Positions 7,310 to 13,732 of a stretch of DNA of 13,732 bases are shown piece after piece; within the stretch, counting starts at the first letter, position 1, and each line of letters starts with the position of its first letter. The position numbers were made by a program, and so were the translations under genes. The notes beneath the pieces were generated by a model, which was not told where the DNA came from, ran no database searches, and saw only the letters and a program-made list of their open reading frames with translations. This DNA comes from an uncultured Flammeovirgaceae bacterium (GTDB lineage Bacteria > Bacteroidota > Bacteroidia > Cytophagales > Cyclobacteriaceae), in assembly GCA_937138955.1 (NCBI GenBank), contig CAKZPJ010000082.1, positions 1-13,732 of the forward strand, read 5' to 3'.

Positions 7310-8068
7310 ATGAGAAAAAAGATTATTGCTGGCAACTGGAAAATGAATAAAACTTTAGAAGAAGGAAAAATTCTAACATCTGAAGTCGTAAATATGGCGA
7401 AAGATGAGCTGCGCGATGATGTACAATTAGTACTTTGTACGCCCTTTATTCATCTAAGTAACCTACAGACTATGTTGGCGGATTCTACCGTTGCGCTGGG
7501 AGCACAAAATTGCAGCAACCATGCTTCTGGGGCATACACTGGAGAAACCTCAGCGGCTATGCTCCAATCTATTGGAGTAGATTATGTGATACTAGGCCAT
7601 AGTGAGCGACGAGAATATTTTGGTGAAACGGATTTCTTACTAGCTGAGAAAGTAGATATAGCATTAGAAAATGGTTTGATTCCGATTTTCTGCTGTGGAG
7701 AACCACTTGAAATACGAGAGAGAGATGGCCAGCAGGCCTACGTACAGCAGCAAATCGAAGAGAGTTTATTTCACTTAAGTGATGAGAAATTTGGTAAAAT
7801 AGTCATTGCTTACGAACCTATTTGGGCAATTGGTACGGGTAAAACTGCGAGTTCCGATCAGGCGCAGGAAATGCACGCGGCCATTCGCAAGCAGATTACG
7901 GAAAAATACGGCGAAGAGATAGCAAATAATACCTCAATCCTTTACGGCGGAAGCATGAAGCCCGCCAATGCTGAAGAACTTCTATCTTGCATGGATGTAG
8001 ACGGTGGACTAATTGGCGGAGCCTCTCTCAAGTCGCGCGACTTCGTAGATATTGCTAAATCATATTAA
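7310..8068 (+). CDS. tpiA: Triose-phosphate isomerase
   Basis: 252 residues, full family length. It interconverts dihydroxyacetone phosphate and glyceraldehyde 3-phosphate in glycolysis and gluconeogenesis, as a cytoplasmic dimer with a TIM-barrel fold. All active-site residues are present: N9 and K11 in AGNWKMN, the electrophile H97 in LGHSERREYFGE, and the catalytic base E169 in AYEPIWAIGTGK, whose tail is the flexible phosphate-gripping loop. The C-terminal phosphate-binding sequences LYGGSMKPAN (211-220) and DGGLIGGASL (231-240) are also intact. The ATG at 7310 is the natural start, since MRKKIIAGNWK matches relatives. prmA follows 82 nt downstream on the same strand, so the pair may be co-transcribed from the promoter candidate near 7163, although the dyad between them could reduce read-through. 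Confidence 0.98.
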   Translation: MRKKIIAGNWKMNKTLEEGKILTSEVVNMAKDELRDDVQLVLCTPFIHLSNLQTMLADSTVALGAQNCSNHASGAYTGETSAAMLQSIGVDYVILGHSERREYFGETDFLLAEKVDIALENGLIPIFCCGEPLEIRERDGQQAYVQQQIEESLFHLSDEKFGKIVIAYEPIWAIGTGKTASSDQAQEMHAAIRKQITEKYGEEIANNTSILYGGSMKPANAEELLSCMDVDGGLIGGASLKSRDFVDIAKSY

Positions 8069-8150: not shown

Positions 8151-8981
8151 GTGAAACAATACATTGCCGTAGAAATTAAGTGTAGTGAGTCGCTTCGGGA
8201 AATACTGATAGCTGAGTTGGGCGAAGCACAGTACGATTCGTTTCTGGAAACCGAAGACGGGTTGGAGGCCTATGCCGAACGGGAGCATTTTGAGCAATTG
8301 AGGCTAGAGGAAATACTTCAGCAATACGACCTGTCTGCTGCGGATTATCAGGTGCAAACCGTGGAGGAGAAAAACTGGAACGTAGAGTGGGAAAAGCATT
8401 TCGACCCTATCGTAGTAAACGACCAGTGTTTAGTTAGAGCCACCTTTCATCAGACTGATAAAAAGTACCCCTACGAAATTATTATTGACCCGAAAATGGC
8501 CTTTGGCACCGGGCATCATGCGACGACCTACTTGATGTTACAGTGGCAATTGGAACTTGAGCAGGAAGGTAAATCAGTGCTTGATGCTGGTTGTGGCACC
8601 GGAGTGCTAGCGATTATGGCGAACAAGCGAGGAGCGACTAAAATCGCGGCCTTTGATAATAACGAGTGGGCAGTAGAAAACAGTCAAGAAAATCTGGAAC
8701 TGAACCAGTGCTCAGAGGTTCAACTATTTTTGGGAACGATACAAGATGTAGATCCTGAACAATCGGTAGATTTGATTCTGGCCAACATCAATCGCAACGT
8801 ACTGCTGGAAGAAATACATTTATACGCTCAACGATTAAAATCTTCCGGGAAACTGTTACTCAGCGGATTTTTGGAAGCCGATCAAACCCTGATCGAGCAA
8901 AGAGCAACTCAGGCTAGCCTACAATCAGCAGGGGTGAAATACCACAACGGTTGGGTGGCATTGTTGCTTGAGTGGACATAA
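8151..8981 (+). CDS. prmA: Ribosomal protein L11 methyltransferase
   Basis: 276 residues, near the length of known PrmA. The enzyme trimethylates several amino groups of ribosomal protein L11 with S-adenosylmethionine in the cytoplasm; it is usually dispensable. Seen: an N-terminal substrate-recognition domain (about residues 1-65), a linker containing NWNVEWEKHFDPI (76-88), then the family hallmark DPKMAFGTGHHATT (113-126), the cofactor loop LDAGCGTGVLAI (144-155), an acidic residue at D169 in AAFDNNE ending strand 2, and LANINRNVL (210-218), the NPPY-like motif of this family. The start is GTG at 8151; an ATG at 8149 overlaps it but is out of frame and hits TGA at once, so GTG is the only sensible choice. 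tpiA lies upstream on the same strand, and a strong hairpin follows the stop. Confidence 0.96.
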   Translation: MKQYIAVEIKCSESLREILIAELGEAQYDSFLETEDGLEAYAEREHFEQLRLEEILQQYDLSAADYQVQTVEEKNWNVEWEKHFDPIVVNDQCLVRATFHQTDKKYPYEIIIDPKMAFGTGHHATTYLMLQWQLELEQEGKSVLDAGCGTGVLAIMANKRGATKIAAFDNNEWAVENSQENLELNQCSEVQLFLGTIQDVDPEQSVDLILANINRNVLLEEIHLYAQRLKSSGKLLLSGFLEADQTLIEQRATQASLQSAGVKYHNGWVALLLEWT

Positions 8982-9163: not shown

Positions 9164-11506
9164 ATGAAGGCGAAGTATATTTTCTTCACATTATTGCTGT
9201 ATACGCAATTAGGCTGGGCGCAACGCTACGAATTTAGCGATAGCCTCACTTATGGTGATCAGGTTAGGGAGTGGTTTTCTCAAGCTAGCGACAGCAGTAC
9301 CATCAAATTAGGGGAGCAATTTGCGGTTTTCTGGGATGGTAGTGCGTTATCTTCTACCCAAAAAGATACGCTAACCGCCATAACTACCCAAATGCTAGCT
9401 AAAAATTACAAGCTCAAGCCCTACCTAGCCGACTTACACGCTACGGTACTGTATGCAGTAGACTCAGCAGATATCAGCACTTCCAATCTGGATGCCATGT
9501 TGGGAATGCTCCACAAAATGACATTGTACAATGAACGCCGGGCAGTAGGCTACGGTTTGAACACGCTAAAATCATTCTTTGCCGAAGGAGCCATATATCG
9601 GGTTAACTACAATAAACTATACGCTGATGCAGGTGGCTATTCGTTCGAGTTTATTCCAGCCCCGGCAGATGAGTTGATACCGGAAGAAGAGTTGAGTGAA
9701 GGCGAAGATGAGTTTTTGAGCGAAGAAGATCTGTGGTCAGCTGAGGAGGAAGAAGTCGCCGAAGAAGATGCGTGGGGTGATGATGCCTGGGGGGACGACG
9801 ATGCTTGGGCCGATGAGGACTGGGGCACGACCGCTGATGAAACGTTACCTGAAAGTGAAGAAGAGGAAGAAACCGATATTCTGGACTACTTAATTCAGGA
9901 ACCTATTCAACCCGAGCTAACTGGAGCGGTTATGCGCTTTCAGAAAGTAGACCTCACATTCGCTACAACTTTTGATACCGCTTACCTTCGTCAAACGAAT
10001 GGTGCCCTGATGTTGAAAGACCAACTGTTTGTAGGTGAGGGTGGGAAGTTTGATTGGACAATGGCTGGCCTGGGTGAAGATTCGGTGTATTGTACGCTAG
10101 GCAAGTATAACTTTGATATTAGGGTACCTAAGTTGAATGCCGAAAAGACAACGATGACCTACGTTGGCAAAGTTAAAGAGCCAGTAGAAGGGTTGTTTGA
10201 GTTTGCCAGTGAGCGCCACCAAGGACTAAACGATGCCCGTTATCCCCGATTCAAAAGCTACCGTAGTGATATAGCGGTTAGCATTTACGATAAGCAGGAA
10301 ATTAATCCTAATCAGGTCTCCCTCATTGGCGGATTCTCACTGGTGGGCAGCCGGATTAGTAGTGCTTCTTTTTACGAAGGTGAAACTACGGTAGAAGTAC
10401 ACGAAAAGGGTGGCAGAAAATTTAAAGCTACTTCGATTCGTTTTGGTATTACCGATTCACTAATGACCAGTAGCCAAGCAGAAGTTGTTATTTACCAGAA
10501 CAACGACTCCATTCACCACCCGGCAGTGAAGTTTAAGTATATTCTGGATTCTTCGTACTTAGTACTGCAAACTACAAAAGGCGATTTCAAACGCACCCCT
10601 TTTATTTCTACTTTTCTTCAAATGGAGATCCAGGCCGATATGATTCAGTGGAACTTACAAACGGATAGTTTGGCCATCTCCACACTTTCGGCTCGGGATA
10701 AGGTGCCGGTTCTGTTTAAATCGCAGGAATATTTTAGCGAAGAGCAATTTGACCAACTGGGAAGAATGTACGACTTTCATCCGCTAATTATGGCGGTGAG
10801 CTACGCCCGCAAAACCCGGAGTGGCACTTTTTACGCTGATGACATGGCTCAGTCTCTCCGGAAGAACCCAAAAGTTATCCGCGCAGCCATGAAAAGTTTA
10901 ATGGGGCAAGGGTTTATTGAGTACGATGAAGAATCGGGTGAAGTGATAATGAAACGCAAAGCGTACCACTACGTACTGTCCAAGGCTAAGCGAAAAGATT
11001 TTGACGACCTGTTGATTCCCTCTTTTGCCAGTAATGGACCTAACGCAGTGCTCAACTTAGATAGCATGGCGCTGGCCGTGCAGGGTATTGAGAAGTTTAC
11101 GATCAGTAACGAGCTCAATGTGCAAATTATACCAACGAACAACGAAGTGACCATGCTGGGCCAGCGGGATTTTAAGTTTAATGGTGTACTACAGTCCGGT
11201 AACTTCGAGTTTTCAGGAAGAGATATCACGTTTCGTTACGATAGCTTCCTCATCAATTTACCTAAGATCGATTCTATTTCATTTTATTTACCGGATGAAA
11301 ACGGCAATCGTAAAAAAGTAAATAATTCCCTCCAAAGTGGACTAGCGGCTGGAATGCAAAATACTTCTGGGACGCTATTTGTGAATGATCCAAAAAATCG
11401 CTCGGCTCGCAGCAAAGATCCTAGCTTCCCTAAATTCGATGCGGAAAATGGGGCGGTGGTGTATTTTGATAATAAAGATATACTAGATGGAGTTTACGAT
11501 AAGTAG
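9164..11506 (+). CDS. N-terminal part of a very long exported Bacteroidota protein, ended by an in-frame TAG
   Basis: 780 residues with no function I can name. A signal peptide is clear (MKAKYIFFTLLLYTQLGWAQ, cleavage about residue 20), so the product is exported. Residues 169-238 are extremely acidic and include DAWG-like micro-repeats at 201-221. After about 245 the protein alternates short beta strands, with a helical stretch at about 540-605 that looks like a winged helix. The sequence just before the stop (YFDNKDILDGVYDK) reads without a break into the codons after it (MYYVIPPFDIDSL); from memory, long Cytophagales proteins of about 1,500 residues have a comparable join as one polypeptide. 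The TAG at 11504-11506 is therefore probably internal to the ancestral gene. The reading frame resumes at 11507 in the same frame. It may be a nonsense-mutated pseudogene, a sequence error, or a gene rescued by read-through or re-initiation. Confidence 0.8.
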   Translation: MKAKYIFFTLLLYTQLGWAQRYEFSDSLTYGDQVREWFSQASDSSTIKLGEQFAVFWDGSALSSTQKDTLTAITTQMLAKNYKLKPYLADLHATVLYAVDSADISTSNLDAMLGMLHKMTLYNERRAVGYGLNTLKSFFAEGAIYRVNYNKLYADAGGYSFEFIPAPADELIPEEELSEGEDEFLSEEDLWSAEEEEVAEEDAWGDDAWGDDDAWADEDWGTTADETLPESEEEEETDILDYLIQEPIQPELTGAVMRFQKVDLTFATTFDTAYLRQTNGALMLKDQLFVGEGGKFDWTMAGLGEDSVYCTLGKYNFDIRVPKLNAEKTTMTYVGKVKEPVEGLFEFASERHQGLNDARYPRFKSYRSDIAVSIYDKQEINPNQVSLIGGFSLVGSRISSASFYEGETTVEVHEKGGRKFKATSIRFGITDSLMTSSQAEVVIYQNNDSIHHPAVKFKYILDSSYLVLQTTKGDFKRTPFISTFLQMEIQADMIQWNLQTDSLAISTLSARDKVPVLFKSQEYFSEEQFDQLGRMYDFHPLIMAVSYARKTRSGTFYADDMAQSLRKNPKVIRAAMKSLMGQGFIEYDEESGEVIMKRKAYHYVLSKAKRKDFDDLLIPSFASNGPNAVLNLDSMALAVQGIEKFTISNELNVQIIPTNNEVTMLGQRDFKFNGVLQSGNFEFSGRDITFRYDSFLINLPKIDSISFYLPDENGNRKKVNNSLQSGLAAGMQNTSGTLFVNDPKNRSARSKDPSFPKFDAENGAVVYFDNKDILDGVYDK
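9668..9877 (+). repeat. Region encoding an acidic tract with Asp-Ala-Trp micro-repeats
   Basis: Codes for residues 169-238 of the long exported protein, mostly Glu and Asp. Within it (9764-9826) are four related units: EDAWG, DDAWG, DDDAWA and DEDWG. The codons for Asp, Ala and Gly differ between units, so the repeats are not a recent slippage product. The stretch is probably disordered; acidic tracts of this kind can bind calcium or act as linkers, but no EF-hand or other named motif is seen. Confidence 0.7.
11504..11506 (+). other. In-frame TAG followed directly by in-frame ATG (TAGATG)
   Basis: The stop closes a 780-codon frame that starts at 9164. The next codon is ATG and the same frame then stays open for 742 codons to the window end. 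TAG is an ordinary stop elsewhere in the window (ends of the genes at 1150, 1938 and 6372), so general recoding is unlikely. A TCG serine codon, one base different, is a plausible ancestor. GGAG at 11489-11492 lies 14 nt before the ATG, too far for a good ribosome binding site. Confidence 0.9.
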
Positions 11507-13732
11507 ATGTACTACGTAATTCCCCCCTTTGATATTGATAGCTTGAACAGTACCGACCCTGCTTCTATCTCGTTTCCCGGAACACTCTATAGCGATATAT
11601 TTCCCCCGGTAGAGGAGGATTTAAGCGTATTACCCGATAATTCAATGGGGTTTGTTCATAATACCCCAGCAGATGGATACGCACTATACGGGGGAACCGC
11701 CACATATAAGAACGACTTAAGTTTGAATGCTCAAGGATTGCGAGGAGTAGGAACGATTGACTATCTTACTACCGTGCTAGAATCAGAAGATTTTATATTC
11801 TATCTGGATTCGGTGCTGACTGTGGGTACAGTGGTGGATATGGAGGAAGGTAACTCAGGGCAAGCCAGTTTCCCGCAGGCGTATGTAGAGGATTATACGT
11901 TAAAGTGGCTACCTCGCCAGGATAGTATGTATATCACCAACAATGCTAAACCGTTTGAGCTGTACAATCAAACGGCTTCATTGGATGGTGGAGTTACTCT
12001 AACCAGCAATGGGCTACTGGGACAAGGTACATTACTAACGCGTGGCTCGGAGGCAATCTCGGATAAAATGGCCTTTGAGCAGAGTCAGTTTTCAGCGCGA
12101 AATGCCAGTTTTGAAATCAAGTCTGATAATACCAGGAAACCTGCATTAGCGGGAGAGGACGTTTACCTAAACTTTGACCTCGTAGCTAACCAAGCTAACA
12201 TCAGCCCTGAGGTGAAAGGGGTAGCGGCTATTGGTTTTCCCTACGCTCAATTCCGAACATCAATTACCAAAGCCGTTTGGGATTTGGAGGAAGAGACAGT
12301 ACGCATGAGCAAGCCCGAAGATGTAGCTATTGAAGACTCGTATTTTTATGCTACCCGAGCGGAGCTTGACTCCCTGGTGTTCAGTGCCGAAGAAGCGGTT
12401 TACCAAATTCCGCTGCAGGAATTAGATGTTTCGGGTATTCCGTACATTACAGTAGCTGACGCGAAAATTACGCCAGAGAATAACCAGGTGCAGATTCGGG
12501 AAAATGCTAAGTTTGATACCTTCAGCAACGCAACTTTAGTAATTGATACTCTGAATGAATATCACCGTTTATTCAACGGAACCATTGATATTATCTCACG
12601 GAATGAATTTCGTGGGAAAGCTACCTACGAGCTAGTATCGGCTAGCGATACTTTTGCTATTCAATTAACGGAATTTGTTATCGACTCAGCGCAAGAAGGA
12701 AGAGGAAGGCGAACCGAATGGGTGAAGCATACCGTAGCCGACGGAACAGTACAGGAAGCACAGAACTTGGTCATTTCTCCCGGGATGCTTTACCGCGGTA
12801 ACATTCGGATGCATGCTGCTAAGGAAGCTCTAGAGTTGGATGGAGAAGTCAAGCTGGATTTCAAGACTATTCCCAACTATAATACCTGGATTAGTTACGC
12901 GAGTGAGGCTGGTGATAAAGAGTTAAGGTTTGATATTGCTTCCAGTACTACTGATACCGGAGAACCGCTTACGGCAGGGTTGCACCTGGACCGAAGCAAT
13001 AGTTTATATATGACTTTTGTGACCGATCTTCGCTCACCCGAAGATCCCGATATTTTCCGACCGCAGGGTATGCTTGCGTTCAATGAAGAAGAGCAGAAGT
13101 ACACTATCCGCGCTCCACAAAAGGATAAGCCCAACGCACTTTCGGGTGATGTGTTTACCTTCGACGAGAATGAGCAGTCGGTAGCCTTTGAGGGTAAACT
13201 GAATTTACTTCCTTATCCCGAAGCAGGTCTCACCATTCAAACGGCCGGAGCTGGTAAAGGAGATCTACAAACTAATGAGTATAAGCTAGACGCTTTCATG
13301 ACCGTAGATATTGACTTGCCCGCACAAGCAGTGGAAATGATGGGTCAGGACTTGAATACTTCGCTTAATAAATCAGGAGCTCGAGCCGCTATTAGTGACC
13401 GAACTCGCTTGCTGTATAAACTGGCTGAATTTATCGGTGACCAAGCCGCTCGTGAATTTGATGAGCTATCTATTTCGGAGTACACCCCCATGTTTTCAAT
13501 GGGTCCTCAGTTAGAAAAAACCATTGTACTAGCCGATGTGCAGCTAGTCTGGTCCGATGAGCACAAAGCCTGGTACAGTACCTCTCCGTTAGGAATATCA
13601 AATATACAAGAAACTGATATTAATGGTCAGGCTACTGGGTTTTTGGAAATTAAGCCTACCGATGAAGGAACAATTATCAACCTATTCATGCAGGCTACCT
13701 CGGACTCTTGGTACTATTTTTCCCATCAGAAC
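11507..13732 (+). CDS. C-terminal part of the very long exported protein (3' end outside window)
   Basis: 742 codons are open to the last base of the window, in the same frame as the preceding 780-codon gene and directly after its TAG. I translated the whole stretch and found no stop or frameshift. It has no signal peptide, so by itself it could not be exported as the full-length protein would be; this argues that it was once (or still is) joined to the upstream half. It is rich in short alternating strands, with recurrent patterns such as GLRGVGTIDYL and GLLGQGTLLTRG, and with VSGIPYITVADA followed by NEYHRLFNGTIDIISR. From memory these resemble conserved stretches of long envelope-associated proteins in Cytophagales; their function is unknown to me. 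Translation from the ATG at 11507 by termination-coupled re-initiation is possible. The gene should end shortly downstream if it follows the length I recall for the family. Confidence 0.8.
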   Translation, partial: MYYVIPPFDIDSLNSTDPASISFPGTLYSDIFPPVEEDLSVLPDNSMGFVHNTPADGYALYGGTATYKNDLSLNAQGLRGVGTIDYLTTVLESEDFIFYLDSVLTVGTVVDMEEGNSGQASFPQAYVEDYTLKWLPRQDSMYITNNAKPFELYNQTASLDGGVTLTSNGLLGQGTLLTRGSEAISDKMAFEQSQFSARNASFEIKSDNTRKPALAGEDVYLNFDLVANQANISPEVKGVAAIGFPYAQFRTSITKAVWDLEEETVRMSKPEDVAIEDSYFYATRAELDSLVFSAEEAVYQIPLQELDVSGIPYITVADAKITPENNQVQIRENAKFDTFSNATLVIDTLNEYHRLFNGTIDIISRNEFRGKATYELVSASDTFAIQLTEFVIDSAQEGRGRRTEWVKHTVADGTVQEAQNLVISPGMLYRGNIRMHAAKEALELDGEVKLDFKTIPNYNTWISYASEAGDKELRFDIASSTTDTGEPLTAGLHLDRSNSLYMTFVTDLRSPEDPDIFRPQGMLAFNEEEQKYTIRAPQKDKPNALSGDVFTFDENEQSVAFEGKLNLLPYPEAGLTIQTAGAGKGDLQTNEYKLDAFMTVDIDLPAQAVEMMGQDLNTSLNKSGARAAISDRTRLLYKLAEFIGDQAAREFDELSISEYTPMFSMGPQLEKTIVLADVQLVWSDEHKAWYSTSPLGISNIQETDINGQATGFLEIKPTDEGTIINLFMQATSDSWYYFSHQN

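Follow-up and report, generated by a model that had tools for sequence, protein, structure and literature searches.

The stretch of DNA analysed here, called the window throughout (13,732 nucleotides), is the entire contig C82 of the draft genome G000, and it raises the question of whether two long open frames that adjoin one another towards its 3' end encode two proteins, or are the halves of one gene split by a stop codon. The first of them, 780 codons plus TAG, is the ORF 9164–11506 of the plus strand; directly past the TAG (11504–11506) the same frame is open again from the ATG at 11507 and runs for 742 codons without a stop to base 13732, its 3' end being open because the contig ends there. 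This layout had been given in the original prediction and was confirmed on the sequence. An open frame of 742 codons right behind a stop would be unexpected by chance. Judged by reading, the upstream half opens with a signal-peptide-like segment (the first 20 residues), and the product of the downstream half has none.

We consider it very probable that the two halves constitute one gene for an exported protein of approximately 1,600 residues, and that the TAG is a private lesion, being either a recent nonsense mutation or a consensus error. Seen directly are the one-gene ancestry of the halves, the sense residue that relatives and a near-identical copy have at the site, and the normal use of TAG as a terminator. 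No evidence contradicting this ancestry was found. The features of the locus are collected in Table 1.

Table 1. Features of the split gene and of its upstream neighbours (coordinates of the window)
Feature	Coordinates	Strand	Evidence
Gene which we take to be tpiA-like; conserved neighbour	7310..8068	+	Same order in L033, L034 and L037
Gene which we take to be prmA-like, directly upstream; conserved neighbour	8151..8981	+	Same order in L033–L037
Upstream 780 codons of long exported-protein gene	9164..11503	+	Whole-length homologues; residues 1–780 matched in L032 and L033
Putative MarR-like winged-helix insert (residues 553–639), flanked by beta-jellyroll parts	10820..11080	+	Weak profile matches below cut-offs; structural matches of the equivalent L032 region
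Lone in-frame TAG	11504..11506	+	Aligned residue in the best 120 of 434 homologues mostly S
Downstream 742 codons, same frame, cut by contig end	11507..13732	+	Final 65 residues on contig C126

The two halves in relatives

A protein query with X at the position of the stop retrieved 434 homologues, the best 120 of which were all 1,579–1,679 aa in length. In each of these 120 a sense residue occupies the site (S 94, D 10, T 6, N 6, K 2, R 1, E 1), with neither a TAG nor any other stop. The long single-polypeptide relatives supposed in the original prediction are thus demonstrated by these 120 and by the frames of the same-genus genomes G001–G003, which read straight through the site and lack the TAG. 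The text across the stop was rightly described as continuous protein, as relatives align through it; the alignment places a one-residue insertion just 5' of the site in two loci (L013 and L014).

When 59 genomes were searched with the downstream half, matches were obtained in 51 (G000 included), i.e. in 50 of the 58 others, eight genomes being without a match, and no stop occurred within any of the matches listed. The match lies in open frames of 1,609–1,642 aa in G001–G003, G015 and G028; frames around the matches mostly measured 1,437–2,168 aa, the shorter ones (510–1,184 aa) being those of G041 and G053. Homologues that are consistently two genes, an arrangement which would have spoken for two proteins, were seen neither in the 59 genomes nor among the best 120 homologues, and in none of the relatives found there did a split fall at this position. 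The hypothetical protein P0010 of Tunicatimonas pelagia (1,606 aa) is homologous over the whole length compared, with 88% identity over residues 1–1523 in the same frame, the TAG being read as X; in contrast to the window gene, P0010 and its orthologues in related Bacteroidota are single polypeptides with no stop at the site. The frame in G000 is interrupted, and its gene is a disrupted copy of the P0010 family.

The upstream half alone, compared only with proteins of about 430–1,365 aa, yielded six truncated relatives (517–1,176 aa), none of which is split at residue 780; their similarity ends at 818, 1205, 971, 524, 705 and 723. One of them, P0001 (848 aa, 58% identical), continues to be similar for 37 residues beyond the TAG site before the similarity ends, which is probably due to a frameshift elsewhere in the family.

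The genomic context was also conserved. The place behind the prmA-like gene is kept in five of seven loci, and in the two others (L032 and L038) the long gene sits at the start of a contig. Comparison with three same-genus copies gave pN of 0.06–0.13 and pS of 0.75–0.81 for both halves (499 of the 780 upstream codons being covered in the comparison with L003); pS is saturated, which precludes dN/dS. The low pN in both halves points to long constraint and carries no information on the time since the lesion. Titles and abstract openings of the literature yielded nothing on this gene.

Assembly error or recent mutation

The original prediction had listed four options for the TAG, of which a recent nonsense mutation and a base-call error stand, and read-through and re-initiation were left unsupported. 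Between the two that stand we found error and true recent mutation about equally likely. Most likely, the stop reflects a mutation private to this genome or a fault of assembly rather than any new genetic mechanism, with no apparent difference from ordinary nonsense alleles or draft-assembly errors in bacterial genomes, where a private single stop is likewise accompanied by an intact copy elsewhere.

Such an intact copy is P0008 (1,607 aa), one of the 120 homologues above and the representative of a 90% cluster of three sequences, which differs from the window at three positions over 1,523 residues, one of them being the stop and the other two falling among the remaining 1,522. P0008 might stem from a second assembly of this sample. 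A search of G000 with P0008 over contigs of 3 kb upward (a second copy on a shorter contig would escape) found one copy, with residues 1–1523 on C82 including one TAG and residues 1543–1607 on C126 (7293–7487 of 7,489). The gene is therefore broken again between contigs, 2.2 kb downstream of the stop. This break inside the gene shows that the assembly struggled here, which by itself does not prove the TAG to be an error.

An error of consensus or base calling, or a strain-mixed assembly, so that the TAG is carried by no cell, has close to an even chance of being correct. It is favoured by the draft state of G000 (5.63 Mb in 879 contigs, 94% complete), by the contig break within the same gene and by the existence of the near-identical intact P0008. 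The stretch, however, is not generally noisy, given only two other differences from P0008 in 1,522 residues, and none of the 21 SusC rows listed for G000 (48 matches) contained an internal stop. We had also considered a particular error spectrum as the cause of the TAG, as two differences from P0008, taken to be private to the window, seemed out of the ordinary; this idea was dropped because the serine of the window at residue 1513 is common to 14 of the 120 homologues listed.

Only marginally less probable is a true recent nonsense mutation, possibly at the level of the strain, with a pseudogene in the making here and the gene intact elsewhere in the species. The TAG would then have arisen as a private point change at an amino-acid codon, mostly serine in relatives. 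The undecayed downstream half is what would be expected of a recent event, and the assembly contains further lone stops in permease-like and phosphatase-like genes. Against it, the gene is widely conserved (the 50 other genomes mentioned above) and looks constrained, and the assembly is fragmented. The intact state of the downstream half had been taken to mean that the change is recent or that this half is still used; recency fits, and continued use need not be assumed with only two other differences from P0008. Since a copy this similar exists, one would not anticipate decay after so young a lesion.

We scanned for other stops between coding-like frames by codon bias in the 95 readable contigs of G000 (669,670 bases, all ≥3 kb) out of a set of 120, the other 25 being at most 2,989 bases long. 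The scan listed 13 stops, which by reading comprise five that cut proteins, six that separate neighbouring genes and two that are ambiguous. The five continuous-looking splits are this gene, L131, L171 (plus strand), L085 and L087, the stop being TAG in four of them and TAA in one; two of the four others, L131 and L171, were compared with relatives. At least two further genes of G000 are interrupted by a lone stop at a place where the frame of a same-genus relative is open.

L171 (8084, plus strand, contig C307) is a lone TAG in a phosphatase-like gene, presumably PhoD-like; two same-genus relatives have tyrosine at the site, and two more distant relatives have N and I. The relative in G003 holds two internal TGA codons, so decay of this gene may be under way within the genus. 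L131 (16652, minus strand, contig C207) is a lone TAG at a mostly valine site of a permease-like gene, which we take to be MacB/FtsX-like, and around it the reading frame looks scrambled in comparison with the copy of G002. The remaining two were assigned by reading: a TAG within a continuous-looking protein that we assume to be an IS66-transposase-like one (L085, 815, plus strand) and a TAA within a presumably Fic-like one (L087, 3611, minus strand).

Among permease-like matches in G000, one of 17 rows listed, the query included, had an internal stop (50 matches). In the draft relative G001, internal stops were present in three of 37 SusC rows listed (47 matches) and in three of 50 permease rows listed (134 matches), and in G002 and G003 there were none among the SusC and permease rows listed. 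From these counts, lone stops appear as a low background in such drafts that is not special to this gene.

Read-through and re-initiation

Read-through of the stop, or local reassignment of TAG, would restore the full-length protein. The intact downstream frame and the predominance of TAG among the continuous-looking splits (four of five, by reading) agree with it; it is nevertheless very improbable and was set aside. TAG is not avoided as a terminator: among open frames that reach a stop and span 300 codons or more, it closes 83 of 244 (all six frames, the TAGs discussed here included). RF1 is present in G000, above its cut-off. No CTA anticodon was present among the 21 distinct tRNA genes read by ARAGORN, a set in which several amino acids are missing (24 loci, three of them blank; 150 of the 244 candidates scored). 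Furthermore, the TAG sites match differing residues in relatives, this one aligning with serine, that of the phosphatase-like gene with tyrosine and that of the scrambled-looking permease-like gene with valine, and none of the homologues listed has a stop at this site.

Least probable of all is re-initiation at TAGATG yielding two cooperating polypeptides: the ATG does stand directly behind the stop, but the residue at its position among the best 120 of 434 homologues is V in 58, I in 29, M in 22, L in 10 and T in one, so that the methionine is an ordinary residue for this hydrophobic position (V/I/M/L in 119 of 120), the downstream product is without a signal-like segment by reading, the site falls between two strands in a beta domain modelled with confidence, and no relative split there was found among these 120, the 59 genomes searched and the six truncated relatives. 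The model covers the equivalent region of the same-genus relative L032 (mean pLDDT 89); in it the site corresponds to residue 564, flanked by the strands 547–550 and 566–569. Programmed read-through and a functional two-part protein are therefore both unlikely.

With the TAG regarded as a private lesion, its consequences depend on whether it is real. If so, the strain would yield a truncated product of 780 residues, predicted from the model to end within a folded beta domain; the downstream half would go unmade or unexported. That a real TAG is partly suppressed, or that the split is tolerated, so that less of the large envelope protein is made or it is made as two pieces, is as improbable as read-through itself; if true, the excess of TAG among lone stops (four of five in 670 kb, by reading) would reflect leaky TAG termination.

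The protein family and its modelled fold

The family, represented by 9164–13732 of the window and by L032:197–5056, takes in the models the shape of LptA/LptD-like jellyrolls that carry a MarR-like winged-helix insert, and it is apparently exported; it is probably a family of giant LptA-like jellyroll proteins with such an insert, and the protein presumably has a role in the envelope. Foldseek matches to the whole model were weak, with teneurin at the top of one list and LptDE at the top of the other. Pfam scans of the two halves and of five homologues gave no family above its cut-off, OstA and LptD included. The window protein thus differs from the LptA and LptD N-terminal beta-jellyroll (OstA-like) proteins in being much longer, in its MarR-like winged-helix insert and in having no Pfam OstA or LptD match. 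The Pfam LptD model gave no match in any of the four genomes of the genus (G000–G003), which says little, as a Bacteroides control was missed as well. One OstA_2 gene was detected in each of these four genomes.

Should read-through occur at the stop, Bacteroidota would have an instance of leaky TAG. As a private lesion the stop stands as a caution that in a single draft assembly a long conserved gene can pass for two genes, and that homologues settle the matter. The jellyroll-like exported family with its winged-helix insert may merit more attention than the stop.
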